Positions 2,668 through 37,701 of a stretch of DNA of 37,701 nt are shown one piece after another. This DNA is from a virus: positions 1 through 37,701 of IMG/VR virus record IMGVR_UViG_3300030107_004269. The stretch is one strand, 5' to 3'. Each line of letters begins with the position of its first letter. The stretch's first letter is position 1. The translations under genes and the position numbers were made by a program. Under the pieces are notes generated by a model. The model was not told where the DNA came from. It searched no databases and saw only the letters and a list, made by a program, of their open reading frames with translations.

Positions 2668-3108
2668 TTGAGATTAACCGCGCAGGATTTGCGTGATATG
2701 AATATCCTTAAGTATTACAGGCTCACTAGAAAGTGGGTCTGTAAAACTTACGGGTTAAAAGATGCAGATTTAGAATTATTAATTTATTTAGATTGTAAAG
2801 GAAGATTTACACGAAAAGAGTTTATAGATGGAGTTTACACATATTCATGGGATAAACAAAGATGGGAGAGACTAAGACAAGATGGTTGGATAGAAACTTG
2901 GAGACATCGCAATAGAACTACTATTAAATACTCCGTGTTCAAAACATCTTTTAAATGCTCTCAGATGATAAGTAGAATTTACAGAATACTTTTAGGCGAG
3001 GAAGATCTTCCTGTGTCAGAAAGAAGTATATTTTATAATAACAAGTCATATACAGATAAAGTTTATAACAAAGCTATAGATGATATGATAAAAGACAAAA
3101 ACAGATAA
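2668..3108 (+). CDS. Winged-helix (MarR-like) DNA-binding protein candidate
   Basis: 146 aa from a TTG at 2668, four bases after the preceding stop; an in-frame ATG at 2698 would give a protein 10 residues shorter. I prefer TTG because the residues it adds, RLTAQDLRDM, continue a plausible helix. The pattern suits a small winged-helix fold: helices at about 8-30 and 35-50 (GLKDADLELLIYLDC), then FTRKEF, a basic recognition-like helix KQRWERLRQDGWIE, and a beta wing RHRNRTTIKYSVFK. The C-terminal third is basic and helical. It is the only regulator-like protein in the window and could control the structural genes or bind packaged DNA. No ligand site is visible. Confidence 0.6.
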   Translation: MRLTAQDLRDMNILKYYRLTRKWVCKTYGLKDADLELLIYLDCKGRFTRKEFIDGVYTYSWDKQRWERLRQDGWIETWRHRNRTTIKYSVFKTSFKCSQMISRIYRILLGEEDLPVSERSIFYNNKSYTDKVYNKAIDDMIKDKNR

Positions 3109-3112
3109 AATT

Positions 3113-3451
3113 ATGCCTAAATTTCCAAAAAACACAAGCCCAGCTATGTATAAGTCAGCTCCATTTAAACAAAAAAATAGAAAAAAATTATTTGATTTTA
3201 AAGGATATATAAAAGGAGAGCAGGGTTTAATTCCAGACATTAAAGGTGAATCTACTAAAAGTACAGCTGAAGGAATAATAGAAAAAGGTAAAAAAATTGG
3301 TCGTAAAGTTGAACTTGCATTAAGTTCTGGGGGTTACAGCAATACATACAAAGCAAGCCATGAAGGCATGTTTCCAGACGCAAAAATAAATCAACCAAGA
3401 TTTTCTGCTGAAAAGAAAGAACTACTTAAAAAATCAAAATATTTTAAATAA
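3113..3451 (+). CDS. Small basic hypothetical protein
   Basis: 112 aa, lysine-rich and low in hydrophobic residues, probably largely disordered. The N-terminus is Pro/Lys-rich (MPKFPKNTSPAMYKSAPFK), followed by lysine runs and a C-terminal KKELLKKSKYF. A YKASHEGMF segment near residues 79-87 is echoed by DASHEGLM in the 66-aa protein downstream. The start is preceded by ATAAAATT, a typical start context for this phage. It sits one base upstream of the metallopeptidase-like gene. No known domain is recognised; a minor virion or nucleic-acid-associated protein is possible. Confidence 0.6.
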   Translation: MPKFPKNTSPAMYKSAPFKQKNRKKLFDFKGYIKGEQGLIPDIKGESTKSTAEGIIEKGKKIGRKVELALSSGGYSNTYKASHEGMFPDAKINQPRFSAEKKELLKKSKYFK

Positions 3452-3883
3452 ATGGGATTTAAACTAGGAACAGAGAGAGGTAACTATGCCGTAAGTGGTG
3501 AAGTTAAGACTAAAATGAGATTTCACCAAAACTCTGGAGAACCAGATGTGTCTGTGCCTGGAACACCTGTTATTAGAAAAGACTTAGGACCTAATATAGG
3601 TGGAGAGGCTAATATGGATGGAAGTATATATCTTAGTAATAAAATAAAGCCAGGTAGTTTTGAAGAAGGACAAATAATAAGTCATGAAATGAGACATGCT
3701 ACTGACATGCAAATAGGTAAATTAGCATATACTGATGATTATATAAAGTATAATGGAGAAACTTTTCCAAGAAAAACTATAAACGGTAAAGATATGATAT
3801 ATTGTGATGGAGAATGGAAAGAGGCTGGTAGTCATGATTTTCCTTGGGAAAACGAAGCAAATAACGGAAATGGAGATATTTAA
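3452..3883 (+). CDS. Zincin-like small metallopeptidase candidate
   Basis: 143 aa. The central helix IISHEMRHATDM carries an HExxH zinc-binding motif (H78, E79, H82). Downstream acidic residues in PWENEA (E133, E135) could supply a third ligand, as in gluzincins. Between them are short beta-type strands (DDYIKYNGETF, GKDMIYCDGEW). There is no signal peptide or membrane segment. It lies between a small basic protein and two small membrane proteins including a holin, so a role in lysis or cell-envelope degradation is possible; a maturation protease is the alternative, since no prohead protease is recognised elsewhere in the window. Zinc ligation is inferred from the motif only. Confidence 0.6.
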   Translation: MGFKLGTERGNYAVSGEVKTKMRFHQNSGEPDVSVPGTPVIRKDLGPNIGGEANMDGSIYLSNKIKPGSFEEGQIISHEMRHATDMQIGKLAYTDDYIKYNGETFPRKTINGKDMIYCDGEWKEAGSHDFPWENEANNGNGDI

Positions 3884-4082
3884 AGATAATAACGAGTGGA
3901 ATGAAAAATCCGTTGTAGGATTCATTGCATTTGCAATAATGTGTGTGATTATGATAGTAGATCTCATAACTGGCTGGTTAGGAAGAGATCTAATGATAAA
4001 TGAGTTTGTATACGATTCTTTTGTACTAGTGGTGCTTGGATGCTTTGGTATAAGTGGAATGGAAAAATTCGCTAAGAAATAA
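3870..4082 (+). CDS. Small two-helix membrane protein, holin/antiholin-like
   Basis: 70 aa from the ATG at 3870, which overlaps the end of the metallopeptidase-like gene by 14 bases. A longer in-frame start at 3804 would add residues lying wholly inside that gene and is unlikely. The protein has a charged N-terminus (MEIFKDNNEWNEKS), a membrane segment at about 14-33, a short polar loop, a second segment at about 46-63, and a basic tail MEKFAKK. Size and topology suit a small holin, antiholin or accessory membrane protein. It lies 216 bases upstream of the better holin candidate at 4299. Confidence 0.65.
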   Translation: MEIFKDNNEWNEKSVVGFIAFAIMCVIMIVDLITGWLGRDLMINEFVYDSFVLVVLGCFGISGMEKFAKK

Positions 4083-4094
4083 TAAATAACAATT

Positions 4095-4295
4095 ATGGGG
4101 TATAAAATGAATAAAACTAACTCAACTTTTGATTTTGGATCAACAAATCAAGATTTGAATAAGGCAAAGAAAAAAGCTAGAAAAAACGTTGCAAGTTCTA
4201 TATTTATGGAAGATGCAAGTCATGAGGGGCTTATGAGTAAAGGTAAAAAACTCCATCGAGCTTTTAAAGAAATTCAAGGATATACAGATTATTAA
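4095..4295 (+). CDS. Small basic hypothetical protein
   Basis: 66 aa, highly basic, with a lysine/arginine cluster NKAKKKARKN near residues 22-31 and a second basic region GKKLHRAFKE. It contains DASHEGLM, similar to the ASHEGMF segment of the 112-aa protein at 3113. It starts after AATAACAATT, the usual A/T-rich start context here. No domain is recognised. It lies between the two membrane-protein genes. Confidence 0.55.
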   Translation: MGYKMNKTNSTFDFGSTNQDLNKAKKKARKNVASSIFMEDASHEGLMSKGKKLHRAFKEIQGYTDY

Positions 4296-4298
4296 AGT

Positions 4299-4685
4299 AT
4301 GCTAGGTAAAATATTTTCAAGTGGTGCAGCGGACCTAGTAAAAGGTGTTGGAAGTGTGATAGATAATTTACACACATCTGGTGAAGAAAAACTTGCTGCA
4401 GAAAACAAAATAAAAGAATTAATAGCCAACTATGAAGTTGAGATGGAAAAGAACATTACATCTCGCTGGAAAGCAGATATGAATAGTGATTCGTGGCTAA
4501 GCAAAAATGTTCGACCACTAGTATTAATATTTTTAGTAGTATGTACAATGCTACTTATATTTATTGATGCTGGTAAACTTAACTTTAACGTAAAAGACTC
4601 TTATGTAGATCTTTTACAATTAGTATTAATAACTGTGATCGGTGCTTATTTTGGCGGACGATCATTTGAAAAAAGAAAAAAATAA
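4299..4685 (+). CDS. Holin, 3TM/GTA-type
   Basis: 128 aa. An N-terminal amphipathic region (MLGKIFSSGAADLVKGVGSV) precedes a charged helical stretch (EEKLAAENKIKELIANYEVE). Then comes the hallmark SWLSKNVRPL leading into a membrane segment at about 71-90, a polar loop, a second segment at about 103-120, and a basic tail RSFEKRKK. This layout matches the 'holin of 3TMs' family known from gene transfer agents and many phages: inner-membrane proteins that permeabilise the membrane at lysis. No endolysin or spanin is recognised next to it, apart from the possible metallopeptidase at 3452. The family call comes from motif and topology, not from a search. Confidence 0.78.
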   Translation: MLGKIFSSGAADLVKGVGSVIDNLHTSGEEKLAAENKIKELIANYEVEMEKNITSRWKADMNSDSWLSKNVRPLVLIFLVVCTMLLIFIDAGKLNFNVKDSYVDLLQLVLITVIGAYFGGRSFEKRKK

Positions 4686-5834: not shown

Positions 5835-6030
5835 TGTAGGTAAAGATTACAAAACAGATGCCATGCATTATTCTGTTGGTCAAGAAGTTTATGGAGGTCA
5901 TACTATTTGTGATATATTAGAAGAAGAAGACAAGTATTCTATATATATTAGAAAAGAAAGCAATGTTATACCTTGGAAAGACTTTAATAAAAACATGGCT
6001 ATATCTATTGAGTATAATTTAGAATACTAA
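5809..6030 (+). CDS. Small beta-rich hypothetical protein
   Basis: 73 aa. The start ATG lies 26 bases inside the preceding gene; the next in-frame ATG (5863) would remove the RKISVGKDYK segment, so 5809 is preferred. Alternating hydrophobic residues (YSVGQEVYGGHTICDILEEE, KYSIYIRK) suggest a small beta-barrel or SH3-like fold, ending in a charged segment WKDFNKNMAISIEYNLEY. Its stop TAA shares its last base with the next ATG, so it is tightly coupled to the tandem GroES-like gene. No known function is recognised. Confidence 0.6.
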   Translation: MAKLIRKISVGKDYKTDAMHYSVGQEVYGGHTICDILEEEDKYSIYIRKESNVIPWKDFNKNMAISIEYNLEY

Positions 6031-6620
6031 TGAAAAGTGTTTACAACTTTGTTGTAAAACCAAAAGGAGATAGATACAACAATAAAAAGAAGATTGGAGA
6101 TTCAGAGTTAATACTTAACACTGAAATCTTCAATCATCAATACGTTAATAGAGAAGCTATTGTTACATCAACTCCTATTATTGGTGATACAGATATAAAA
6201 ACTAATGATACGGTTTTAGTACATCATAATGTGTTTCGTAGATGGCACAACCAACACGGTGTAGAAAAAAACAGTAGAAGTTATTTTGATAAAGATACTT
6301 ATTTAATATCAAAAGATCAGATCTTTTTATATAAAAGAGATGGAAAATGGAATGCACCAAATGGATATTGTTTTGTACAACCAATAAAAGACGTTAATCA
6401 ATTCAATCCAAATATAGAAAAACCACTAGTTGGTATAGTTAAATATTCAGATGGCAGTGTTAATGTTGGTGATTTAGTTGGGTTTGACCCTAGATCTGAA
6501 TATGAATTTATTGTTGACAAACAAAGATTATATAGAGTTTTATCAAATTTAATTACAATCAAATATGAATATCAAGGAAACGAAGAAGCGTATAATCCAA
6601 GCTGGGCACAAAGCAGTTGA
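6030..6620 (+). CDS. Tandem GroES-like-domain protein candidate
   Basis: 196 aa that appear to hold two GroES-type folds. Domain 1 (~1-103): strand VYNFVVKPKG, a long mobile-loop-like insert with KIGDSELILNTEI, then REAIVTSTP, IKTNDTVLVHHNVFR and DTYLISKDQIFLYK. These line up with GroES R-V-I-V-K, GGIVL, GEVLAVG, VKVGDIVIFND and VLIMSESDILAIV. Domain 2 (~108-182): GYCFVQPIK, a short loop, PLVGIVKYSDGSVNVGDLVGF, then RLYRVLSNLITIKYE, close to LYRVIRSGDVVLID in the phage GroES at 1570. The tail is EEAYNPSWAQSS. It starts on the stop of the upstream gene and runs 56 bases into the TerS candidate. Tandem GroES proteins are known as plastid Cpn20. The fold is inferred by manual alignment; function is untested. 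Confidence 0.6.
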   Translation: MKSVYNFVVKPKGDRYNNKKKIGDSELILNTEIFNHQYVNREAIVTSTPIIGDTDIKTNDTVLVHHNVFRRWHNQHGVEKNSRSYFDKDTYLISKDQIFLYKRDGKWNAPNGYCFVQPIKDVNQFNPNIEKPLVGIVKYSDGSVNVGDLVGFDPRSEYEFIVDKQRLYRVLSNLITIKYEYQGNEEAYNPSWAQSS

Positions 6621-9058: not shown

Positions 9059-11479
9059 ATGGCAGAGTCTGTTATAAAAAGTTATTTTCCTAGTCAAGCT
9101 GTTAGCGATGCAGAGAAGTTGAGCTATGAGTACGGTTTAAAAGTAGGTAAAGCTATTCAACAAGAATGGTTTAACAATGACAATAGTCATGATAGATACT
9201 TAAATAACCTAAACAATTTTCATAAACTTAGATTGTACGCTAGAGGCGAGCAATCTATTCAAAAATACAAGGATGAGTTATCAATAAATGGTGATTTGTC
9301 CTATTTAAATTTAGATTGGAAACCAGTTCCAATTATACCTAAATTTGTAGATATAGTAGTTAACGGTATGTCTGAAAGAATGTATGATATAAAGGCGTAT
9401 TCTCAAGATCCATACGGAGTGATGCAAAGAACTCAATATATGGAGGCTATGGCTAGTGATATGAGAATGAAGACTTTTAACGATATGGTCTTAGATGATT
9501 TTAATGTTGATTTGTACAAAACGGATCAAAGATTTTTACCAGAAACAACAGAAGAGTTAGAACTTCATATGCAATTAACATACAAACAGTCTGTTGAATT
9601 AGCACAAGAACAAGCTTTAAATGTTTTGTTTGATGGAAATAACTATGAAGCTATTAGAAGAAGAGTGCACTATGACTTAACTGTTCTTGGAATAGCGGCT
9701 GTAAAAACTTCTTTTAATACTTCAGAAGGCGCTACTATAGATTATGTTGATCCTGCAAATTTAGTTTATTCTTATACTGACTCTCCTTATTTTGAAGATA
9801 TATATTATGTTGGTGAAGTAAAATCCGTACCTATTAATGAATTAGCGAAAGAGTTTCCTTTTTTAACAGAAAGTGACATACATGAAATACTTCAAAATAG
9901 AAGTAACATGAAAAATAATTATAACAATATTCATATAACAAATAAAGACGATAAAAACACTGTACAAATACTTTATTTTAATTATAAAACTTATATGAAT
10001 GAGGTTTATAAAATGAAAGAAACTTCTACTGGTGGTATGAAAGCTATAATGAAAGATGATACTTTTGATCCTCCAAAAGAAAAAGAAGGTGAATATTCTA
10101 GGTTATTAAGGTCTATAGAATGTTTATATGATGGGGCTATGATTTTAGGTACAAATAAATTACTTAAGTGGGAAATGGCAAAAAACATGATACGCCCTAA
10201 AAGTGATTTTACTAAAGTTAAAATGAACTATAGCATAGTAGCTCCTAGAATGTATAATGGTAAAATAGAATCTTTAGTTAGTAGAATAACTGGTTTTGCT
10301 GATATGATTCAATTAACGCATTTAAAACTACAACAAGTATTAGGTCGTATGGTGCCAGATGGCGTATATTTAGATGCAGATGGTCTTGCTGAAATAGATT
10401 TAGGTAACGGAACAAATTATAGTCCTCAAGAAGCGTTGAATATGTTTTTCCAAACTGGATCTGTTATAGGTAGATCGTTTACCTCAGAAGGTGATATGAA
10501 TCCTGGCAAAGTACCTATACAGGAAATAACTAGTGGTAGTGGTGGTAATAAATTGCAAGCGCTTATAGGTAATTATAATTATTATTTACAAATGATAAGA
10601 GATACTACCGGACTAAACGAGGCTAGAGATGGTACTATGCCGGATAAAAACGCTTTAGTTGGAGTTCAAAAACTAGCCGCAGCAAATAGTAATACAGCAA
10701 CAAGACATTTATTACAATCAGCTTTGTTTTTAACAGCTGAAACTGCAGAATGTTTATCTTTAAGAGTATCAGATATATTAGAGTACTCACCAACAGCTGA
10801 TGCGTTTATTCAACAAGTTGGCGTTCATAATGTTGCTACATTAGAAGAAATATCTAATCTTCATTTATATGATTTTGGTATATTTATAGAACTTCAACCA
10901 GACGAAGAAGAAAAAATGATGTTAGAAAATAACATACAAGTCGCTTTATCTAAAGAAAATATAGAGTTGGAAGACGCTATTGATATTAGAGAAATTAAAA
11001 ATATTAAATTAGCTAACCAATTGCTTAAAATACGTAGAAAGAAAAAGCAAGATAGAGATCAAATGATACAACAGCAAAACATTCAATTGCAATCTCAAGC
11101 TAATATACAAGCTCAACAAGCTGCAACTCAATTAGAGATGCAAAAGCAAGAAGCTAAAACCATGCAAGAAGGTACGTTGGAACAAATCAAAGCTCAACTT
11201 GATACACAAAAAATGGAGCAAGAGGTTAATTTCAAAAAAGAATTAATGGCGTTAGAATTTCAATATAACATGCAACTTAAAGAATTAGAAAATCAAACCG
11301 CTAATAATAAAGAAAAAGAAAAAGAAGATCGTAAAGACGAAAGAACAAGAATACAAGCAACTCAACAAAGTGAGTTAATTGATCAAAGAAATAATGCAAA
11401 AGCACCTAAAAACTTTGAATCTACAAGTAATGATATTATTAGTGGAGAATTTGGATTAGGAGCCTTTGATCCTAGATAA
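9059..11479 (+). CDS. Portal protein
   Basis: 806 aa, the dodecameric ring through which DNA enters and leaves the head. It follows TerL and precedes the scaffold-like and capsid genes. The N-terminal part contains DWKPVPIIPKFVDIVVNGMS and AYSQDPYGVMQRTQYMEAMA, of the kind seen in portals of crAss-like and related phages, then a wing/stem region with DYVDPANLVYSY and an RDTTGLNEARDG segment near residue 520. Residues ~659-780 are a Gln/Lys/Glu-rich coiled coil (barrel/crown extension). It is translated from an ATG two bases after the TerL stop. The portal call rests on size, order and pattern; no catalytic motif is expected. Confidence 0.88.
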   Translation: MAESVIKSYFPSQAVSDAEKLSYEYGLKVGKAIQQEWFNNDNSHDRYLNNLNNFHKLRLYARGEQSIQKYKDELSINGDLSYLNLDWKPVPIIPKFVDIVVNGMSERMYDIKAYSQDPYGVMQRTQYMEAMASDMRMKTFNDMVLDDFNVDLYKTDQRFLPETTEELELHMQLTYKQSVELAQEQALNVLFDGNNYEAIRRRVHYDLTVLGIAAVKTSFNTSEGATIDYVDPANLVYSYTDSPYFEDIYYVGEVKSVPINELAKEFPFLTESDIHEILQNRSNMKNNYNNIHITNKDDKNTVQILYFNYKTYMNEVYKMKETSTGGMKAIMKDDTFDPPKEKEGEYSRLLRSIECLYDGAMILGTNKLLKWEMAKNMIRPKSDFTKVKMNYSIVAPRMYNGKIESLVSRITGFADMIQLTHLKLQQVLGRMVPDGVYLDADGLAEIDLGNGTNYSPQEALNMFFQTGSVIGRSFTSEGDMNPGKVPIQEITSGSGGNKLQALIGNYNYYLQMIRDTTGLNEARDGTMPDKNALVGVQKLAAANSNTATRHLLQSALFLTAETAECLSLRVSDILEYSPTADAFIQQVGVHNVATLEEISNLHLYDFGIFIELQPDEEEKMMLENNIQVALSKENIELEDAIDIREIKNIKLANQLLKIRRKKKQDRDQMIQQQNIQLQSQANIQAQQAATQLEMQKQEAKTMQEGTLEQIKAQLDTQKMEQEVNFKKELMALEFQYNMQLKELENQTANNKEKEKEDRKDERTRIQATQQSELIDQRNNAKAPKNFESTSNDIISGEFGLGAFDPR

Positions 11480-22919: not shown

Positions 22920-25900
22920 ATGGCGACAAGTATAGCGACAAATAATCAAAGAAATACACTTATAAAACCAGAGGACAACTTGCAAATTGGTAAGCCGGTA
23001 ACGCTATCTTTTAGCGAATCAGTTAGAGGATGGACTAGTTTTAAAAGTTTTATTCCACAATCAGGCGTTAGTTTGTCAGGTGAATATTATACGTTCGATA
23101 ATGGAACTCCATACATGCATAATTCTGAAACGGTTTCTATGAATACGTTTTACAACGTTTCTTATGAATCAAGTGTTTCTGTTGTTCTTAATGATCTAAC
23201 GTCGAATGTAAAAAGTTTTAAAACTCTAGAATATGAAGGTAGTCAGTCTAAAATAGAAGAGTTTATTACAGAGATAAAAGACGGTGTAAGATATAATGAC
23301 GGTGAATATTATAATTTAACACATAAATACGGTTGGTATGTAGATAATATAAAAACAGATTTACAAGAAGGTAAAGTTCCTGAGTTTATAAACAAAGAAG
23401 GAAAATGGTACAACTATATAAAAGGGGAAAATAGCACTAAACTGCCTGGTCAATTAAATGGAGTAATAAATAAATTAGATTCTAGAGAATTTTCTTTTCA
23501 AGGTTTGGGCTATGCTGGAGACGTTGATTATGTTGGTCCAATAATAAATAAATATTTATTAATAGGAGATTGGATAGATAGCTCAACAAGCACAACAGAG
23601 TGGCAAGATATGGTTAGTGTATTAAACGATTGGAATTCAGGGGCTGTTGTTGCTCCTTGGCAAGATCATATTCCATATGAAGATACTGACAATTCAAGTG
23701 ATCCTTTTACAATACAAGGTAATTTAACATTAAACTTACCTCAAAATGTAATGCAAACCTCATTAAAAAGAAGTATATATGTTATACCAAAAACAGATGC
23801 AGCGGGTAATTTAGAAGAATTATCTGCTCACTTTTTAAGTGTAAATAGAATGCACTTACAATCTACATCAATGGCGCCTTGGTTTGGTGTTGCTCAAAAT
23901 TATACTATTACTACAGCAGGAATACCATCACCTCATGGAAATGGATATACTGAATATAAAATTGTTCCAACAAGTGATTATCACGGTTTAGGATATAATT
24001 ATTTTCATAAATTAGGTTGGCCTATACACTTAACAACACAACATGAAGATATTGTTATAACAGAAATAAATGTAAAAGAAATATATAACGATATAAACAT
24101 AGACACGTATCCTAAATCAATAGAAATAGAATTAACATTATCTGAATTTCAACTAGATAGCATGCGAGATGTTTATGGAAACGGAACGCCTGCTTCAAAT
24201 AAGTACATTCCAGTTGATGTTGATTATTACCCTATAGATTTACCACAATCTTTAATTACTTTTGCAGTAGAACTTGATCAAATACCTTTAAGTGGTAGTT
24301 ATAATTCTACATCTGGACAATTCCATGCTTTAGGGCCAGATTCATCAACAAGTAATGATTTTAAATTTACTTTTTATGATAGCGCTAATTCTCCAGTTAT
24401 TGATTATAACCATCTTATTCAAACTACTCTTCCTAGTATAATAGCTAATTCTCCGGTCAATAATAAACCAACTATAGGAATTTTTCCAGCTATGGATCCA
24501 GGTGTTCCTATAAATGCAGGTGTATTTTTAGGCACCAGTTTTAAAACTAATTGTGAAAGTTATGCTGACACTTCGCCAGATATAGTGGACGCTATATTTA
24601 CAGAACAATTAAAAGCAACACCTAATCAACTAAGTGTAGATCAAAATCCTAGTGGTCCTTCTTATGTAACAAATGGTTATAACTGGAATTGTAACGATTC
24701 AACTCAACCAATTGGTGTTACGTATCCTCCAAATCAAAGTTCTGGTTTAGATTTGTTAAGAGAATTAAGTGTTTCAGCTTGTAGTGGTGGGGCAAATGCA
24801 AGTCAATCTACAGACATATTAAATAATAATATTAGAACAATACCGTTTATTTTACCTCCATTTGATGTTGTTGTTGATATGGGTAAAATATATCACGATT
24901 TAACTAATACTCCTTTTGCAAATGTTTATGGTTGTACCGATCCTTTAGCGCTTAATTTTAACGCACTAGCAACTATTGATGATGGATCATGTATTTACCC
25001 TTCTTGGGATTGTGATGGTCAAGGGAATTGTTCAGACCCATTAGATGGCACTGGAGCGTATTCTACGCTAGCAGCTTGTCAAGCGGCTTGTGTAGTGCCA
25101 ATACCTGGGTGTACGCTTCCTAGCGCAGTTAATTATGATTCAACAGCGACTGTTGATGATGGTTCATGTTATTGGAATTGGTGCACAGATCCAGCGGCAG
25201 ATAATTATGAAGAAATTTGTAACAACGTAACAACTTTAGCACAAGTAATGTCATATGGAGGTTTTGGATCACTAGTATCACTTAATGCTTGTTGTAACTA
25301 TTCTACACCACCTTGTGTAAACCCTACGTTTAATTTTGTGGGTACATTGCCTTCTGGTGTAACTGCTATTATTGATGCTAATGATTCAGGTATTGGAATT
25401 GACGTGGACATGAGCAACACCAATTACGAACAAATAAGTTGGTGGAGTTCGCCTTGGTTTGCATCTGGACAACAAACAACACCTTATAATTGGTATGAAA
25501 TAACTGCTTGGTGGGGTCAGTTAGTTGGGAATAACACAATACAAAACTCAGGAGGAACGTTAATACCTCAAACTTTTGATAAATGGTATGATACTGCTTG
25601 GTATTATAGTTGGGGTAATACTGTGCCTTTATTTCCTAATTGGCAAGGCTTTACTTCTCAGTTAAATGGAATGATGAGTTGGTATGATAAATCTGAAGAT
25701 AATGTTTATTTTTGGAGTGGCAACTCTATAATGTGGCAAATGGAATTTGATGGTGGAATTGGAGATTTTGATCCAGGAACTAGTTTAGGAATTGCTAATA
25801 ACCTTGTTGGTGCACAAGCTAAAACAGCGGGTATAGCTACAAAAATAAATTTAGGACCAGATTGGACTAACTATATAAATACATACACAATAGAAATAGA

Positions 25901-26390
25901 TATTGATTTAACACGGGGATACCCACAATTAGTTGCAAATGGTGTAACTTCTGTACCAGTAGTTTTTATGCTAGGTAATTGGCATCCTAGTTATTGTAGT
26001 CTTCCTTATGGACCAGAACAGGAAATAACAGAAAACGCATTTAACGCGCCCTCTTCGGGAACAGTACATCAAGGGGCTAACTATGGTGTGCCATCATTAG
26101 TTAATGCTTTAGAAGTTGTGAGTAATAACGACTTAGTTATTGCCGCGCAATCTCAATCAGTTTACACTTTGTCATTTACTAGTAATATTGATCAATCATG
26201 GGTTACTAATACAGCATCAACAATAACTGGGTTGGTTGCTGACGCGTTGATAATGCTTCAAATATTACATGATGATCATACAAATGGAGAGATATATATA
26301 AATGACATTAGAGTTACTTGTCAAGGTGGTAGTTCTCCTAATCTTAGACCAGGCGGTGGTAGTAGTAAAAGAATAACACAAAGACTATAA
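22920..26390 (+). CDS. Receptor-binding/tail adhesin with Bacteroidota-type cysteine modules
   Basis: 1156 aa. The N-terminal ~180 residues look like a virion-attachment domain (LSFSESVRGWTSFKSFIPQS, SNVKSFKTLEYEGSQSKIEE, KYGWYVDNIKTDLQ). A central beta-rich region follows. Residues 671-~770 hold cysteine-rich modules: GCTDPLALNF...DDGSC (671-691), WDCDGQGNC...STLAACQAAC (696-724), GCTLPSAVNY...DDGSC (730-750) and a degenerate WCTDPAADNYEEIC. These resemble modules in large secreted proteins of marine Bacteroidota. Residues ~810-1030 are unusually Trp/Tyr-rich (SWWSSPWFASG, ITAWWGQL, TAWYYSWG), suggesting glycan binding. The C-terminus is RPGGGSSKRITQRL. Order after the muzzle gene supports a tail fibre or spike. 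Receptor specificity is unknown. Confidence 0.72.
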   Translation: MATSIATNNQRNTLIKPEDNLQIGKPVTLSFSESVRGWTSFKSFIPQSGVSLSGEYYTFDNGTPYMHNSETVSMNTFYNVSYESSVSVVLNDLTSNVKSFKTLEYEGSQSKIEEFITEIKDGVRYNDGEYYNLTHKYGWYVDNIKTDLQEGKVPEFINKEGKWYNYIKGENSTKLPGQLNGVINKLDSREFSFQGLGYAGDVDYVGPIINKYLLIGDWIDSSTSTTEWQDMVSVLNDWNSGAVVAPWQDHIPYEDTDNSSDPFTIQGNLTLNLPQNVMQTSLKRSIYVIPKTDAAGNLEELSAHFLSVNRMHLQSTSMAPWFGVAQNYTITTAGIPSPHGNGYTEYKIVPTSDYHGLGYNYFHKLGWPIHLTTQHEDIVITEINVKEIYNDINIDTYPKSIEIELTLSEFQLDSMRDVYGNGTPASNKYIPVDVDYYPIDLPQSLITFAVELDQIPLSGSYNSTSGQFHALGPDSSTSNDFKFTFYDSANSPVIDYNHLIQTTLPSIIANSPVNNKPTIGIFPAMDPGVPINAGVFLGTSFKTNCESYADTSPDIVDAIFTEQLKATPNQLSVDQNPSGPSYVTNGYNWNCNDSTQPIGVTYPPNQSSGLDLLRELSVSACSGGANASQSTDILNNNIRTIPFILPPFDVVVDMGKIYHDLTNTPFANVYGCTDPLALNFNALATIDDGSCIYPSWDCDGQGNCSDPLDGTGAYSTLAACQAACVVPIPGCTLPSAVNYDSTATVDDGSCYWNWCTDPAADNYEEICNNVTTLAQVMSYGGFGSLVSLNACCNYSTPPCVNPTFNFVGTLPSGVTAIIDANDSGIGIDVDMSNTNYEQISWWSSPWFASGQQTTPYNWYEITAWWGQLVGNNTIQNSGGTLIPQTFDKWYDTAWYYSWGNTVPLFPNWQGFTSQLNGMMSWYDKSEDNVYFWSGNSIMWQMEFDGGIGDFDPGTSLGIANNLVGAQAKTAGIATKINLGPDWTNYINTYTIEIDIDLTRGYPQLVANGVTSVPVVFMLGNWHPSYCSLPYGPEQEITENAFNAPSSGTVHQGANYGVPSLVNALEVVSNNDLVIAAQSQSVYTLSFTSNIDQSWVTNTASTITGLVADALIMLQILHDDHTNGEIYINDIRVTCQGGSSPNLRPGGGSSKRITQRL
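24930..25235 (+). repeat. In-gene GCTDP...DDGSC cysteine-module repeats
   Basis: Three related units at the protein level. Unit 1 (24930-24992) and unit 2 (25107-25169) each run from a GCT(D/L)P start through (L/V)N(F/Y)(N/D) and AT(I/V)DDGSC. Unit 3 (from about 25179) starts WCTDPAADNYEE and is degenerate. Between units 1 and 2 lies another cysteine pattern, CDGQGNC...CQAAC. DNA identity between units is partial, so duplication is old or the units were acquired together. Confidence 0.75.
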
Positions 26391-31241: not shown

Positions 31242-34200
31242 ATGAGTGATTTAACAACAGAATTAAAAGATTATGTTCAAACGGCAAATGATCCTGCCGC
31301 TACCACAAACGGTCAAGTAGACTGGAATTTGGTTAATTCCCATTTTCCATTACTTAAAGATTATAATCAAGGATTATTAAAAGATTATGTTAAAGAGGTA
31401 AAAAAATCTAATCCCACAACTGAAAGAGATTGGAATAATCTTAATACTCAATTTCCTGAGTTTTTTGAAAAACCTATTGAGAGCACAATAACGACTAAAC
31501 CTAAAACTGGGGAAGAAGTAGTAAAATCATTGTTTGAATTACAAGATAGTGTTAATAGAAGAGATAGCTTTGTAAAAAAAAGAGCTGCTGATGAATATTT
31601 TATGACAGATGATCTGGAAAAAAATATTAACAAGTGGATGGACGATAATAATAAGTCAACATTCAAAACAGAATGGTTGGGGAATACTTCTAGACAAGTA
31701 AGACAGCCATATACAGAAAAGGATTTAATGGAGTTTTTTGGAAATAAAAAATACCAAGAATATATAAATTGGAAGAAAAACGGCGAGCTACCTTTTGATA
31801 ATGATGATTTTGACAAAATTGTAAGTCAACAAGTTGCAGAGCGACAAAAAGAAGTTCAACAGCATTACTTGAGAGACCTTGATAATATTGTGTTACAAAA
31901 AGAGGCTTTAATTATGATGCCTGATATTTTTGGCACTAATTTGAACTTAACGGAAGAAGCAATGAGGTCTAGCGATGAGATAGAGTTTGAACAACTTTAT
32001 GGTAGACCGTTAGTTAGAAGAGAATACAAGAAGGGTAAAAATGGTAGATATAAAACGTTTATACCTACTCAAAGAACAGATGATTATCATTCTCCCGACT
32101 CACCTGATCTTCAATTAAACCCGCAAAAATACGACAAAATTTTAAAGCTGCAAGAAGATTGGTTAAAAACGTCCATGAACACTTATAAAAAAAGTGTAAA
32201 CACTTATAACGATAAAGTAACTAATTTTACTATTAAAAATCAAAAGTATGTTGATGAACTTGCAAAATTAGACAAAGAAATTGAAGAGCTTGGAGATATA
32301 AACGCTGACACGTCTTTAGAGGTTAGACAAAAATATCTAGAATTAGCAAATCAGTATAATGGTGTAATTTCAAGAATTAAAGAAAGTGGATTAGATGATT
32401 TAAGACTTGAGGTTATAGATTTAAGCAAATCTTTAGAAACTAGATTTGACGATTTAATGGATAAATCAGAAAAATATAACAATATAGTAATGGCTACTGA
32501 AGCGTTAAATCTTAATTATAATTGGAGTGCTAGATTTTTGTTACAAATTGAAAATTTCTTTTCTGATATGAAAGTGTTAGGTACTTCAATACCGGCTGGT
32601 ATATCAGAGCTTACAGAAAAAATAATTTGGAATGTTGATGATGGAGCGGAAAGTGAATTTTATAGATACATGCAGCAAAATTATAAGGCAGCTATAAATT
32701 ATAGTGAGAGTGTTAAAAATAGAATACAAAGTGAATTGCCTAAATCGATTACATGGGAAACTAAAGGGGGTAATCTAGGCGCATATATGGCAGATATGCT
32801 TGCTAATAATTCGATGAGTATTATGACGGCTATAGCGTCTGGTGGGGTAGGAAGTATTGCTACAAAAGGAATGAGTAGGGCTGGCGCTATGCAAGTAAGA
32901 AAAAGAATTGCCAATAAGACTACTGGAATATTTTTTGGTATGGAATCTGGTTCTAAACTAGCAGATATAGAAATATCTAAAAAGAATGCCCCAAAGCATT
33001 TGAAGGATTTAAAAAAATTATATGAAAACGCACAAACTCCTGCTGAAAAATATGAGCTTTTACGTTTAATAGATCAACAAGAAGCTGCGCTTAGTGTAAA
33101 TGGGTTTGAAAAGGCGTTCTCAACAATAGCTTATGGTGGAATTGCTGCTTATGCTGAAAGACTAGGTACACTAAACTATGTGCATGGATTAAGTCGTTGG
33201 AGTAGAATCGGGGCAATGCAAGGTCCAGTGTGGAAAAAGGGATTATATGGCACGGGTAATACAATGTTTAACATGGGTATTGAGTGGCTTGAAGAAACTG
33301 GTACTATGTTAGGTCATAACTTTATTGATATAGTTGTATTAGATGAGGACAAAAGTCTTGTAGATGGTATTGATATGGAGTTTACAGCAAATGTACTATT
33401 CTCTTCTTTAGCAATACAAGGACCTACTATGGGTATGAATTCTTATAGTGCTATAAATAGTGCAGTTTCAAGTAGAAAAGATAGAAAAAAATCCAATTCG
33501 CTAGCTAAAGAATTGATAGATATACAAGAAACTCTTACTACCAATACTAATTTAAAACCAGCACAACGTAAAGAACTTGTTCAAAGAAAACGAGATATAT
33601 TAAAAGAAGCTTCATTACAAAACTCTTACAGCTTGATGCGTGTGGCTAGAATGAAACCTCAAGAAATAAGAGACATGTTCGAGATAAATAGAGAGAACAG
33701 AAAAGATCTTAAGACTTTAAGAGAGTTAGGCATGTCTGGTGAAAGTGTGCAAGGCGCTGAAAGTTTAAAACAAGAAATTGTTAATAGAATAGAAGAAAGA
33801 AATAGAAAAAAAGAAACTTTATTATCTAAACCGGCGCAGAGAAGAAGAGCAAAACTACAAGCTGCTGGAGCAAAAATAGATTTACAAAATAAAGCAAAAG
33901 TATCAAAAGAAGGTGAAGTTACTATCGAGCAAGAAGGTACTGGAGAATATTTTAATGCTGAAACTGATTATTGGTTAGCTAGATCTGAGTATAATGAAGA
34001 TGTTGTAAGAGCTTTAGGGGATAATTTACAAAAATTTGAAGGTGATAACGCAAGAGAAAACTATAAAAATTATTTAGAAAAACAAAACTTACCTCAAGAA
34101 GAAATTCAAAAAGCTTTAAATGAATTTGATCAAGGTGCTTATGGGGCTAACATAGGGAACTCTCCAATTCTATTTGGAGACAATATATTAAGAGGGATAA

Positions 34201-37200
34201 TAAATGGTGGATTTGAAGCTAAAATGGCTGCTGCAACAGCTCTTCATGAAGCTCAGCACGTAAAAAATAAGCAATCTGGCTTAGTAAAAAATGGTTATGT
34301 AGTTGATTCAGCAAAAAGAGCTGTTGAAGAAATACGAAATAGAATAAATGAATTAGGTTTAGACGAAGACACTAGAAAGGGAATAGAAAATAGAATAGCC
34401 GCATACGACGGTATGACTGAGGTTAATTTAGAAGAATTAATTAATCTAGCAGGAGATTTGAAAGATGCTGGAATAATGAGTAGAGAATCTTTACCATTAG
34501 CTTTTGCATTTAAATCTTTATTAAACTCAACTATAAATCTTTTTAGAAAAGACAAAGACATGTACTTTATGCTTGAAACTGTAGATGAAGTTCTACAGTA
34601 TATTGATAGTTTCCAACAAAAAGCTAAAGCAGGAGGTATAGCGTTGCCACCAGAAGAAGAAGCTAAAGAAGGACCAGTAAAACAATCTCTTACTGCTGAA
34701 GAAATAGCTGAAAAAGAAGAACGTGTAAATGAATTAGGTAGAATGGGTTGGAATAATGAAACTTGGAAGTCTACTGGTGCTGATTTTGCAATGGAAACTA
34801 TGAAGACTGAAAAACTACTTGATGCTTTAATTTATTCTAAATACAAAGCAGATCAAGTTCCTAGTAACTTTGTTGATTTAGTTTACTCTGAATTAACACC
34901 TGATGTGCAAAAGTTTAACGAAGATTTATGGGGAACAGAACAAGAAAATGATAGTTTATTTGGTTACTTAATGGGTAGACTTCAGTTCAGGGCAGATCAA
35001 GTTTATAATAGAGAGTTTAAAAAAGATGAAAAACCAACGGTACGTTTAGACGAGAAAACTAAAGAAGGTGAAATAAAAAGAGATATAGCCTCTACAGATT
35101 TAACACCTGAAGAGCAAATGATAGCTAAAGAAGAAGCGGCTAAAAAAGCTAAAACTCAAAAGACAGACAAACAAAAAAGAGACACCTTTCTTAAGCGAGT
35201 AGGTTTTGACAATAAAGTTAAACAAAAAATTATAGACTCTGTAGTAAAAACATTTGGTACTAAATTACCAGCTGTAACTTCTAAACAGTTTAGGTTAGCA
35301 TTGCAAAGGGCTTTTGAAACTGAATTAAAAAATGTTATACAAAAAGAATTTGGTATAGGTAAAAATTATGATCTATTCTTAAAAACATTATTCCCAACCG
35401 TATTTAAAAGATTAACACCTGAACAATTAACTCAAATAGAAAGAAGAGTTCCTAAGGACAAAAAAATATTTTCTACTAGAAGAAGAATAACTAAAAAAGC
35501 AGAAGTTGAGCAACTGCAAAATGAAGGTTTAATTGCTATGGACGTAGATTATAAAACAGGTCCTTGGTTGTCAACTAAAATGAAAACGCCTAGTATAAAA
35601 CAAACAATGGCATTTTTTAGAGGTAAAAACATGCAAGAGGTTTTAGGTTATACTGTTAGCAAATCTGCATTTGGTACTAGAAAAGACGCTTTAGCAGAAG
35701 CACTTGCCGTGGAGCTAGCTTTTGATAGTGCTATGGAAGTATTAAATGATCCTAAAATTTTAGAAAGAAGACAGGATATAGAGACTTTACAAGGTAGAGA
35801 AAAAGCAGAGAATTACGTTGTTGAAGCTGCTCAAAAAATACGTAGAGATCCTAACATAAAACTCAGTAGAGCTGTTGACAATAATGCTAGTGATAGATCT
35901 TGGAAGTTATTTATAGGGAATAGATCTGAATTTTTAAATAAAATAAGCGAGTATGGCTATTCTAAACAAGCTATAAAAAGAGCTTACGACGAGGTGTACA
36001 AACCTTTAAATTTAAAAACAAAAGAAGGTAAATCTTTAAGAACTGTTGTTGTAAATAGTTATAGTAAAATAATAAATCCTTTTCTTAAAATAAATGAAAG
36101 ATATAAAAAAGGTCAACAAGAGTTTCCTCAAACATTAGAAGAGTATGTTTCAACGGTAGACTTAGCTGACGCTGAAATACAAGTAGCTATATATTTTAAG
36201 TTAGACCAAGCTATGACTGATTTGTTTAAAAATCCAACTCAGAAAAAACAGTATCAAGAATTTTTAACAGATATAGCGCTTAACATAAAAGAAAAAAACA
36301 ACTTATCTAACCAAGAGTTGGCTATAATGTTGTTAAGAGCTCAAAGTCATATGGAAAATGGAACTAATAATCCAAGACGTTCTATGGCTTTTTATAAAAA
36401 CGAAGGATTTGCAAAAGGAATGTTATCGTTAGTATATCCGGGTATAGAAACTTATAAAAAACATAAAGGTAAAGTAACTATATTGGGTAAAAAAGGAAAA
36501 GTATTAGATACATTTAATATACCTGTAGAACCAACCCAAGGTGTTACACAAGACATGATTGACAATAGTGTGTCAAAAGAAGAAAAAGCCGCGAGAAAAG
36601 AATCATCAGATTTTCATTGGAATTATTTAAATATGTTTCTTGAAGAAGCTTCTTCTTTAGTTAAAAATAAACAAAGTAAATATTCTAAAAACGAAATGGC
36701 TATGTTAGCTGCTGGATTTTTAGGTAATATGAAAACATCTTTAAGAGCTAGTGCTTTGTTTAAGTATGCAGTACTAAATCCTTTTGATAAAAACCACAAA
36801 AACTACGAATACGAGCATGGTATACCAGCTTTAGTAATGATGATGCATTTATTAGATCATCACTTTGCTGGAAAAAAAGTGGATTTAGGTAAGTTAAAAG
36901 AAAGTTATGCGGTTGGCGCTATTCATGACGATATGAATACTAACTTAGGTGTTGTGTTTAAAAAGAGAATGCACTTTGATTACAAACTGTATGACATGGC
37001 CCCTAAAAGATGGTATAATATATACACGGCCGCTGGAGCAACACACGCTGTTGTGGATATATACAATGGAAATAAGTTTGGAGAAATTCAAGCCAAATCT
37101 TGGAAAGATATTAAAAAGCTTAAAGATGAGTTAGATAATAAGCAAGTTAAGGAAAATAAAAAACTAAGCAATGCTATTCTTGAAGGTAGAAAAACAGTAA

Positions 37201-37701
37201 AATCAAGTAAAGGAATTACTGTTTTAGATTTTGACGATACTTTAGCTACTACCGAATCGCTAGTAGGATATACTGCTCCAGACGGCACAACTGGAACGTT
37301 AAATGCTGAGCAGTATGCTAATACATATCAAGATTTACAAGCACAAGGTTATACTTTTGATTTTTCAGAATTTAACAAAGTTGTTGGTGGTAAAATAGCC
37401 CCGTTGTTTAAAAAAGCTTTAAAACTACAAGGTAAGTTTGGATCAAAAAGCATGTTTGTATTAACAGCTAGGCCACCACAAGCTCAAAAAGCTATATATG
37501 ATTTTTTAAGGGCAAACGGTTTAAATATACCATTAAAAAATATCACTGGCCTTGGTAATTCTACAGCTGAAGCTAAAGCATTGTGGATAGCTGATAAAGT
37601 TGGTGAAGGGTTTAATGACTTTTACTTTGCTGACGATGCGTTGCAAAATGTACAGGCTGTTAAAAATATGCTAGATCAATTTGATGTTAAGTCAAAAGTT
37701 C
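31242..37701 (+). CDS. Giant multidomain virion protein (zincin + HAD), 3' end cut by window
   Basis: Open from the ATG at 31242 to the window edge, at least 2153 aa; the stop is not in view. Residues 8-38 and 46-75 are a tandem repeat (LKDYV...DWNxLNxxFP). Residues ~100-330 are helical. Weakly hydrophobic stretches near 520-720 (MSIMTAIASGGVGS, STIAYGGIAAYAE) could contact membranes. A metallopeptidase-like motif ALHEAQHVKNKQSG puts H1002, E1003 and H1006 in an HExxH array. A Lys/Glu-rich helical section follows, and EYEHGIPALVMMMHLL near 1857. The last ~160 residues are a HAD-type phosphatase/hydrolase domain: VLDFDDT (D1996, D1998), VLTARP (T2075) and FADDALQN (D2131, D2132). Such giant 'polyvalent' proteins are often packed in the virion and injected. 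Which activities are live is unknown. Confidence 0.82.
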   Translation, partial: MSDLTTELKDYVQTANDPAATTNGQVDWNLVNSHFPLLKDYNQGLLKDYVKEVKKSNPTTERDWNNLNTQFPEFFEKPIESTITTKPKTGEEVVKSLFELQDSVNRRDSFVKKRAADEYFMTDDLEKNINKWMDDNNKSTFKTEWLGNTSRQVRQPYTEKDLMEFFGNKKYQEYINWKKNGELPFDNDDFDKIVSQQVAERQKEVQQHYLRDLDNIVLQKEALIMMPDIFGTNLNLTEEAMRSSDEIEFEQLYGRPLVRREYKKGKNGRYKTFIPTQRTDDYHSPDSPDLQLNPQKYDKILKLQEDWLKTSMNTYKKSVNTYNDKVTNFTIKNQKYVDELAKLDKEIEELGDINADTSLEVRQKYLELANQYNGVISRIKESGLDDLRLEVIDLSKSLETRFDDLMDKSEKYNNIVMATEALNLNYNWSARFLLQIENFFSDMKVLGTSIPAGISELTEKIIWNVDDGAESEFYRYMQQNYKAAINYSESVKNRIQSELPKSITWETKGGNLGAYMADMLANNSMSIMTAIASGGVGSIATKGMSRAGAMQVRKRIANKTTGIFFGMESGSKLADIEISKKNAPKHLKDLKKLYENAQTPAEKYELLRLIDQQEAALSVNGFEKAFSTIAYGGIAAYAERLGTLNYVHGLSRWSRIGAMQGPVWKKGLYGTGNTMFNMGIEWLEETGTMLGHNFIDIVVLDEDKSLVDGIDMEFTANVLFSSLAIQGPTMGMNSYSAINSAVSSRKDRKKSNSLAKELIDIQETLTTNTNLKPAQRKELVQRKRDILKEASLQNSYSLMRVARMKPQEIRDMFEINRENRKDLKTLRELGMSGESVQGAESLKQEIVNRIEERNRKKETLLSKPAQRRRAKLQAAGAKIDLQNKAKVSKEGEVTIEQEGTGEYFNAETDYWLARSEYNEDVVRALGDNLQKFEGDNARENYKNYLEKQNLPQEEIQKALNEFDQGAYGANIGNSPILFGDNILRGIINGGFEAKMAAATALHEAQHVKNKQSGLVKNGYVVDSAKRAVEEIRNRINELGLDEDTRKGIENRIAAYDGMTEVNLEELINLAGDLKDAGIMSRESLPLAFAFKSLLNSTINLFRKDKDMYFMLETVDEVLQYIDSFQQKAKAGGIALPPEEEAKEGPVKQSLTAEEIAEKEERVNELGRMGWNNETWKSTGADFAMETMKTEKLLDALIYSKYKADQVPSNFVDLVYSELTPDVQKFNEDLWGTEQENDSLFGYLMGRLQFRADQVYNREFKKDEKPTVRLDEKTKEGEIKRDIASTDLTPEEQMIAKEEAAKKAKTQKTDKQKRDTFLKRVGFDNKVKQKIIDSVVKTFGTKLPAVTSKQFRLALQRAFETELKNVIQKEFGIGKNYDLFLKTLFPTVFKRLTPEQLTQIERRVPKDKKIFSTRRRITKKAEVEQLQNEGLIAMDVDYKTGPWLSTKMKTPSIKQTMAFFRGKNMQEVLGYTVSKSAFGTRKDALAEALAVELAFDSAMEVLNDPKILERRQDIETLQGREKAENYVVEAAQKIRRDPNIKLSRAVDNNASDRSWKLFIGNRSEFLNKISEYGYSKQAIKRAYDEVYKPLNLKTKEGKSLRTVVVNSYSKIINPFLKINERYKKGQQEFPQTLEEYVSTVDLADAEIQVAIYFKLDQAMTDLFKNPTQKKQYQEFLTDIALNIKEKNNLSNQELAIMLLRAQSHMENGTNNPRRSMAFYKNEGFAKGMLSLVYPGIETYKKHKGKVTILGKKGKVLDTFNIPVEPTQGVTQDMIDNSVSKEEKAARKESSDFHWNYLNMFLEEASSLVKNKQSKYSKNEMAMLAAGFLGNMKTSLRASALFKYAVLNPFDKNHKNYEYEHGIPALVMMMHLLDHHFAGKKVDLGKLKESYAVGAIHDDMNTNLGVVFKKRMHFDYKLYDMAPKRWYNIYTAAGATHAVVDIYNGNKFGEIQAKSWKDIKKLKDELDNKQVKENKKLSNAILEGRKTVKSSKGITVLDFDDTLATTESLVGYTAPDGTTGTLNAEQYANTYQDLQAQGYTFDFSEFNKVVGGKIAPLFKKALKLQGKFGSKSMFVLTARPPQAQKAIYDFLRANGLNIPLKNITGLGNSTAEAKALWIADKVGEGFNDFYFADDALQNVQAVKNMLDQFDVKSKV

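Follow-up and report, generated by a model that had tools for sequence, protein, structure and literature searches.

Related peptidases and lysis enzymes

The C-terminal domain of the T6SS effector VgrG2b (PDB 6h56) carries an HExxH motif and a distal Glu, the residues being H935, E936, H939 and E983 according to the part of PMC6899460 consulted. The same part of that paper describes that this domain lyses permeabilised E. coli with muropeptides unaltered and may target proteins of wall synthesis. A precedent is thus given for a periplasmic bacteriolytic zincin acting without peptidoglycan hydrolysis. In Listeria, the metzincin Mtz is a phage-derived HExxH protease linked to phage-lysin sensitivity, having a secretion signal and the motif HExxHxxGxxH/D (PMC8235301, in part). 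Flavophage Molly encodes a small zinc peptidase (199 aa) with a lipoprotein domain, proposed to degrade matrix proteins, and the endolysins of flavophages are listed as muramidase, amidase, GH19 and L-alanine-D-glutamine peptidase (PMC8776804, in part). In Tenacibaculum phage Larrie, a metallopeptidase (ORF 103) is placed directly before the holin (ORF 104) in the accessible sections of PMC10013915.

The protein analysed here is a predicted zincin of 143 aa. It shares HExxH and a distal Glu with the VgrG2b domain, to which its model gave a weak fold match (Z 3.9, 100 aligned, rmsd 4.9, 14% identity); membership is not claimed, and VgrG2b differs in being fused to a T6SS spike and in having an immunity protein. 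Unlike Mtz, it has neither the secretion signal nor the extended motif, as judged by sequence and hydropathy. The likeness to the Larrie pair is by annotation alone, and no Maribacter phage was among the matches of tblastn searches made with the zincin. IrrE/ImmA (M78) and SprT-like zincins gave the best fold matches (6cz6, 3dti and 6mdx), but their Pfam scores were under cut-off. The M15 and Amidase_2 endolysins of Bacteroidota phages lie near the same holin family and are unrelated to the zincin in sequence by the searches made; M15 is often encoded in the same genome.

Among protein families, phrog_16532 and phrog_10499, both of unknown function, share by eye an HExxH...PWExEA layout with the zincin family. 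A divergent compact relative (L301) matches them at E 1.1e-10 and 9.9e-9, respectively, and the relative in phage Melnitz matches phrog_10499 at 6.4e-18, while the window protein reaches only E 0.031 against phrog_16532. Pfam and PHROGs give no functional name for the family, and in the open PMC library no paper recognisable as describing it or its function was found, nor any experiment or virion proteomics on it. The new element is a holin-linked zincin beside a separate endolysin gene; the zincin itself is a known kind of protein.

The window and the zincin locus

The window, that is the whole stretch of DNA analysed, is a virus record of 37.7 kb, classed as linear and without end repeats, with a GC content of 32.6%. 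It contains a GroEL-GroES pair (21-1827), a small-gene block, TerL, portal, an acidic ORF at the scaffold position, a capsid-type protein and tail-type genes, and its main ORFs all share one strand. The nearest named terminases are those of MW202828 (63.6%), Flavobacterium elemoviruses (~45%) and Cellulophaga phages (~38%), and that of Tenacibaculum phage Gundel_1 is 32% identical. The host is therefore likely a member of the Bacteroidota. A second GroES-like gene lies just before TerL at 6030-6620 (phrog_13932 co-chaperonin GroES, E 1.5e-15). The tail-type protein at 22920-26390 matched the crassvirus muzzle C-terminal domain PF25729 (31.7 bits, cut-off 27), a link to crass-like tail machinery.

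The features around the zincin gene are as follows.

2668..3108, + strand: conserved 146-aa gene, first in-frame ATG at 2698, the usual upstream neighbour of the zincin gene (locus comparison)
3113..3451, + strand: 112-aa basic protein between the 146-aa gene and the zincin gene, varying among relatives (ORF list)
3452..3883, + strand: predicted zincin metallopeptidase ('ZINC'), 143 aa, ATG start (ORF, relatives, conservation, model)
3683..3697, + strand: HEMRH motif, codons 78-82, on predicted helix 70-87 (sequence, alignment, model)
3848..3850, + strand: codon 133, the invariant Glu of FPWE, opening predicted helix 131-138 and put forward as third zinc ligand (115/115; model)
3870..4082, + strand: 70-aa protein containing two TM-like segments, its gene sharing 14 nt with the 3' end of the zincin ORF (ATG at 3870; hydropathy, run on the frame from 3873)
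4095..4295, + strand: 66-aa basic protein just before the holin (ORF list)
4299..4685, + strand: holin-family protein (phrog_3427 holin, E 3.5e-30)

The earlier note had pointed to a small HExxH protein with downstream acidic residues lying beside two membrane proteins, and this description is confirmed by the 143-aa ORF with its conserved motif, by the two TM-like segments of the 3870-4082 product and by the phrog_3427 holin at 4299-4685. The holin scored 22.5 bits for Pfam GTA_holin_3TM, below the cut-off of 24.8, and the two-TM protein had no PHROG match at 0.01; an assignment of the latter to TssN was set aside, the Pfam match being under cut-off, as was RxLR_effector for the ORF at 1897-2664. 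The 146-aa gene had no match in Pfam or PHROGs and is 82-93% identical in the five relatives compared. At E 1e-4, G001-G005 gave no homologue of the 3113..3451 and 4095..4295 products. The zincin gene is surrounded, both in the window (3113-3451 and 4095-4295) and in relatives (L308 3407-3997, L300 3233-3733 and G003 9293-9595), by late proteins that are small and basic, have starts of the M-[AGP]-x-K type and contain GSP-rich repeats. The N-terminus of the zincin family itself reads M-x-F-K-L with nearly no exceptions.

Conservation and catalytic residues

The motif residues are H78-E79-M80-R81-H82, and D85, D95, D96 and E133 are the acidic residues downstream. Composition shuffles gave an expectation of 0.0055 HExxH motifs in the zincin protein and 0.15 over the window's 29 proteins, with two observed (the zincin ORF and the ORF at 31242-37700), so the motif taken alone is modest evidence. 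Its conservation across relatives, in contrast, is strong evidence. In viral contigs, a pattern scan confirmed 346 relatives; the best 80, at 65-79% identity, were fetched, and in an alignment of 40 of 81 sequences (these 80 and the window), H78, E79, H82 and E133 were invariant. Divergent forms, many of ~100 aa, were brought in by holin- and TerL-anchored scans. Across 115 distinct homologues (138 matches before duplicates were merged; L082, the copy of the window itself, may be included), E79, H82, E133, W132, Y93, R107 and G57 were each present in 115/115 and H78 in 110/115; the search profile held the motif, so matches bearing it may be favoured. The median dN/dS was 0.19 (698/780 pairs computable) at a median dS of 1.2, which is near saturation. 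Sequence comparison thus marks the gene as real and under purifying selection.

Five relatives have EExxH, with Glu in place of H78 and all other invariant residues kept (L307 1176-1556, L324 1716-2087, L325 1886-2257, L330 1803-2174 and L251 2800-3174). Part of the family may no longer be enzymes and could instead consist of binding proteins of zincin fold that perhaps regulate the holin, as would fit this replacement in 5/115, the fact that G57, Y93, R107, G126 and W132 are as constant as the motif, and the commonness of substituted zincins noted in PMC3650047 (in part). This explanation is quite unlikely: E79, which in zincins is the general base rather than a metal ligand, is kept in 115/115, an invariance that suggests catalysis, and the five substituted sequences look alike and appear, by eye and not from a tree, to form one clade.

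Predicted fold

AlphaFold gave a mean pLDDT of 68.7 with 40 sequences and 71.3 with 58 sequences. In the second model the blocks spanning residues 41-130 reached a pLDDT of 80-88, while residues 1-34 were mostly <50 across runs. H78-H82 fall within helix 70-87 and E133 is close to the beginning of helix 131-138, and E133 is likely the third zinc ligand, of gluzincin type, as far as the model can indicate.

In the VIA-align comparison of the second model, the first 40 PDB rows were, as we take it from their titles, of HExxH or zincin fold, and the first clear outsider was row 41. The top match was 6cz6 (Z 6.2, 88 aligned, rmsd 4.6), with IrrE 3dti (Z 5.8, 84 aligned, rmsd 3.7) and 6mdx (Z 5.7, 85 aligned, rmsd 3.9) also found, and abylysin and selecase at Z 4-5. 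All Z values were <8, the range about which the tool warns, and Foldseek of the same model against the PDB gave nothing under E 0.001 (best 0.31). The zincin fold therefore rests on the consistency of these matches and not on one strong match. Three matches of the first model among viral models passed E 0.001, one of them named SprT-like. In a structure search of the kind proposed in the earlier note, zincin types lead the VIA-align results, with no match clear of the warned range or of the Foldseek PDB threshold. A zincin-like core is supported by prediction at moderate confidence, and the compact zinc peptidase that the note had suggested gains support from these leading folds together with the conservation of E79, H82 and E133 in 115/115 and of H78 in 110/115.

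Profile searches gave no assignment to a named family. Pfam Peptidase_M91 scored 12.9 bits for the window protein and at most 16.6 for relatives against a cut-off of 25, and neither Peptidase_M78 (IrrE) nor SprT-like matched the window protein over cut-off; the best sub-cut-off scores among relatives tested were 16.1 of 22 for M78 and 22.4 of 25.6 for SprT-like (Melnitz). A sequence search of the PDB with the zincin profile returned two chance matches only. No peptidoglycan-hydrolase domain was recognised in Pfam or PHROGs and no wall-binding domain in Pfam, and the hydropathy scan showed no hydrophobic segment or leader. The crAss-like phage cr111_1 (E 0.6) was rejected as a relative as its protein has no HExxH. 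No paper on a crassvirus cargo-protein metalloprotease was found in open PMC, and the main text of PMC10172136 makes no mention of protease, peptidase, zinc or endolysin.

Linkage to the holin

The same holin family follows the zincin gene in 68 of the 80 nearest loci (best 80 of 346), the gap having a median of 227 nt, with 22 loci within 60 nt and a largest value of 1669 nt. In the other 12 a different TM protein lies directly 3' of the zincin gene, overlapping it by 4 nt in four of them (L050, L074, L075 and L078), and one representative of these proteins matched phrog_3427 weakly (E 0.0018). There is weak evidence that all 12 are holins, which would place a holin-type gene in 80/80 nearest loci. 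The loci with the zincin kept and the holin exchanged are L034, L035, L050, L051, L056, L057, L060, L066, L074, L075, L078 and L079. On the upstream side, the 146-aa gene lies within 10 nt of the zincin in 44 of the 72 loci that have it.

A TerL-anchored set of the window clade comprised 80 loci, of which 24 extend at least 4.5 kb upstream, and the zincin was present in 16 of these 24. Among the eight others, L227 belongs to a record in which a divergent zincin copy lies more distantly upstream, in L207 and L252 the 146-aa gene precedes a holin-type gene and the zincin is missing (the holin of L252 being a reading of the sequence), and the remaining five have no holin in the stretch covered. 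Since L207 and L252 have the neighbours but no zincin, the gene appears dispensable in some phages.

Distant relatives were found in other surroundings. In phages OC, pT24 and XacN1 they adjoin no gene annotated as endolysin or holin; the OC copy has an rIII-like lysis-inhibition gene 2.4 kb away, and in general the large-phage relatives sit among non-lysis genes. In phage Melnitz a GH108 lysozyme lies 0.8 kb away with a 2-TM protein in between. Among plasmids, one weak match was found (E 0.008), away from any phage lysis genes.

These surroundings have to be weighed for the possibility that the protein is a protease of the virion or of early host take-over, cutting a host or virion protein, and that its proximity to the holin reflects a late-gene block only. 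The small genes around it are not recognisable as lysis genes, the pT24 relative lies near baseplate and head-completion genes, and phage and plasmid ArdC and IrrE-type zincins, which act on or with DNA-linked processes, appear among the fold matches. Against this, the holin accompanies the zincin in the nearest 80 loci and in 27/80 of the listed holin-anchored loci, and virion data on the family were not found in the literature searched. The explanation is regarded as rather unlikely.

The holin site in sister phages

A sister phage's holin served as the query of a scan from which 80 loci were collected among the matches listed, with up to 4 kb on each side. The vicinity of the holin contained Amidase_2 in 27 of them, M15 in 21, the zincin in 16, zincin and M15 together in 11, and none of these in 5, so that the zincin was present in 27 of the 80. 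All Amidase_2 genes and 18 M15 genes in these listed loci abut the holin upstream, and the zincin lies 349-2927 nt upstream of it. Pfam was run on one representative each (L260, Amidase_2, 1.9e-17; L286, M15_3, 9.5e-18), the other assignments in this set being made by clustering and profiles. Nine named phages have this holin; an annotated endolysin or M15 is adjacent in four and nearby in one, and in the remaining four none is annotated beside the holin, one of them having DUF1353. From the sister loci and these named phages, the holin neighbourhood is therefore often, not always, a site of a wall hydrolase.

The zincin and Amidase_2 occurred together in 0/80 of the listed holin-anchored loci, and the same non-overlap was seen in whole records (0/12 from IMG/VR and 0/24); it may reflect phage lineages only. 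A replacement of M15 by the zincin was considered and rejected, as M15 or phrog_33083 is found elsewhere in longer relatives and both are together in 11 holin-anchored loci.

The endolysin of zincin-carrying phages

The earlier note had proposed that the protein fills the place of an absent endolysin or prohead protease, and neither suggestion held up. For the endolysin, the comparison covered 13 zincin-bearing records no shorter than 47 kb (G001-G008, G028-G031 and the MAG contig G013:C28), and an endolysin-family gene was found in 10 of them: M15_3 in G001, G003, G004, G005, G028, G029, G030 and G031, and phrog_33083 in G002 and G007. G006, G008 and G013:C28 had neither, being fragments that cannot show absence, and two M15_3 matches in G013 lie on contigs other than C28. 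In six window-clade records the endolysin-family gene lies 37-45 kb downstream of the zincin, and the window ends 34 kb downstream, so the lack of a standard endolysin in the window is explained by truncation. In 15 further window-clade records of 13-41 kb no M15_3 was found, as expected, though not proven, if they end short. A search with Peptidase_M15_4 gave two weak sub-cut-off matches, both within the M15_3 gene. The M15 gene of the window clade sits beside tail-type genes, and in G002 the phrog_33083 gene takes the position of the relatives' M15, adjoining the same family of small beta-rich genes.

The zincin could still be the principal endolysin, a peptidoglycan endopeptidase, if the M15 or phrog_33083 protein served, for example, tail-associated entry through the wall. 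Its place by the holin is where sister phages carry Amidase_2 or M15 in the listed loci, the window-clade M15 is 37-45 kb off and near tail-type genes, 12 IMG/VR records that carry the zincin gave no Amidase_2 match, and neither M15_3 nor phrog_33083 was found in three long records (G006, G008 and G013:C28). However, a known endolysin-family gene accompanies the zincin in 10/13 long records, zincin and M15 share the holin region in 11 listed loci, Pfam detects no wall-binding domain in the zincin, and M15-type (L-Ala-D-Gln) peptidases are endolysins of cultured flavophages (PMC8776804, in part). A role as principal endolysin is accordingly unlikely; the zincin is probably not the missing endolysin and is more likely a helper in lysis.

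The prohead protease question

An HExxH protease encoded in the head-gene region, 3 kb upstream of TerL, would suit a role in capsid or scaffold maturation as a prohead protease. The sister phages speak against it: the zincin was seen in 0/80 sister loci (38 of which extend the 4.5 kb upstream of TerL that would take in its expected place), with a capsid homologue of 35-47% identity in 43, and no zincin match was found in five sister records of 36-64 kb (G023-G027). MW202828 shares with the window TerL (66%), the portal (54%), the scaffold-position protein (32%) and the capsid (44%). As sister phages with homologous terminase, portal and capsid are without the zincin, such a role is very unlikely, and the zincin is probably not the prohead protease.

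Proposed role

The neighbourhood of zincin and holin is persistent, and most long records encode a recognised endolysin-family gene besides the zincin. A persistent holin partner, no leader and an invariant catalytic Glu fit a soluble periplasmic peptidase that awaits the holin, and an accessory envelope peptidase is favoured because a recognised endolysin-family gene is usually present too. The best reading, held tentatively and at somewhat under an even chance, is that of a small soluble gluzincin-type zincin that the holin releases and that acts in lysis as an accessory metallopeptidase. The protein would accumulate in the cytoplasm, as it has no hydrophobic leader, and would enter the periplasm once the adjacent holin opens the membrane. 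There it may cut a peptide bond in the envelope, either in an envelope protein or in a stem or cross-link of peptidoglycan, and would act at lysis alongside the separate endolysin of the phage. The loss of H78 in 5/115 and the small genes that often lie between zincin and holin count against this accessory role, as do the missing zincin of L207 and L252, the surroundings of the OC, pT24 and XacN1 relatives, and the low PDB Z values together with the Foldseek result.

A more specific form is doubtful: a distinct protease step in the lysis of marine Bacteroidota phages, in which the holin-released gluzincin would cut envelope proteins, for example those of wall synthesis or outer-membrane anchoring, together with a separate M15-type endolysin and replacing or besides a spanin. 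Members of the family are frequent in contigs of uncultivated marine phages, with 346 confirmed relatives in one pattern scan. If it is indeed an accessory lysis protease, phage lysis of Gram-negative hosts would involve a further enzyme in addition to holin, wall hydrolase and spanin, and the ~100-aa zincin forms would offer small tools to open Bacteroidota envelopes. As seen here, too, a standard endolysin can seem to be missing when the contig is truncated.

Further observations

Proteins of phrog_3000/phrog_33083 type occupy the endolysin position in L086 (14697-15305, - strand) and L156 (6040-6666), and their HRA...SAGC-type stretch is, in our assumption, reminiscent of L,D-transpeptidases. 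The giant ORF at 31242-37700 (2153 aa, cut by the window end) carries the second HExxH of the window, HEAQH at aa 1002; it had no Pfam match over cut-off and no PHROG match, and a DFDDTLATT stretch near its end presumably resembles the HAD phosphatase motif. In the sister phages L117 (1398-2359) and L134 (2816-4252), a TM holin-like protein is followed by a lipoprotein-plus-TM protein resembling a unimolecular spanin, and in L134 an M15_4 peptidase lies between the two.
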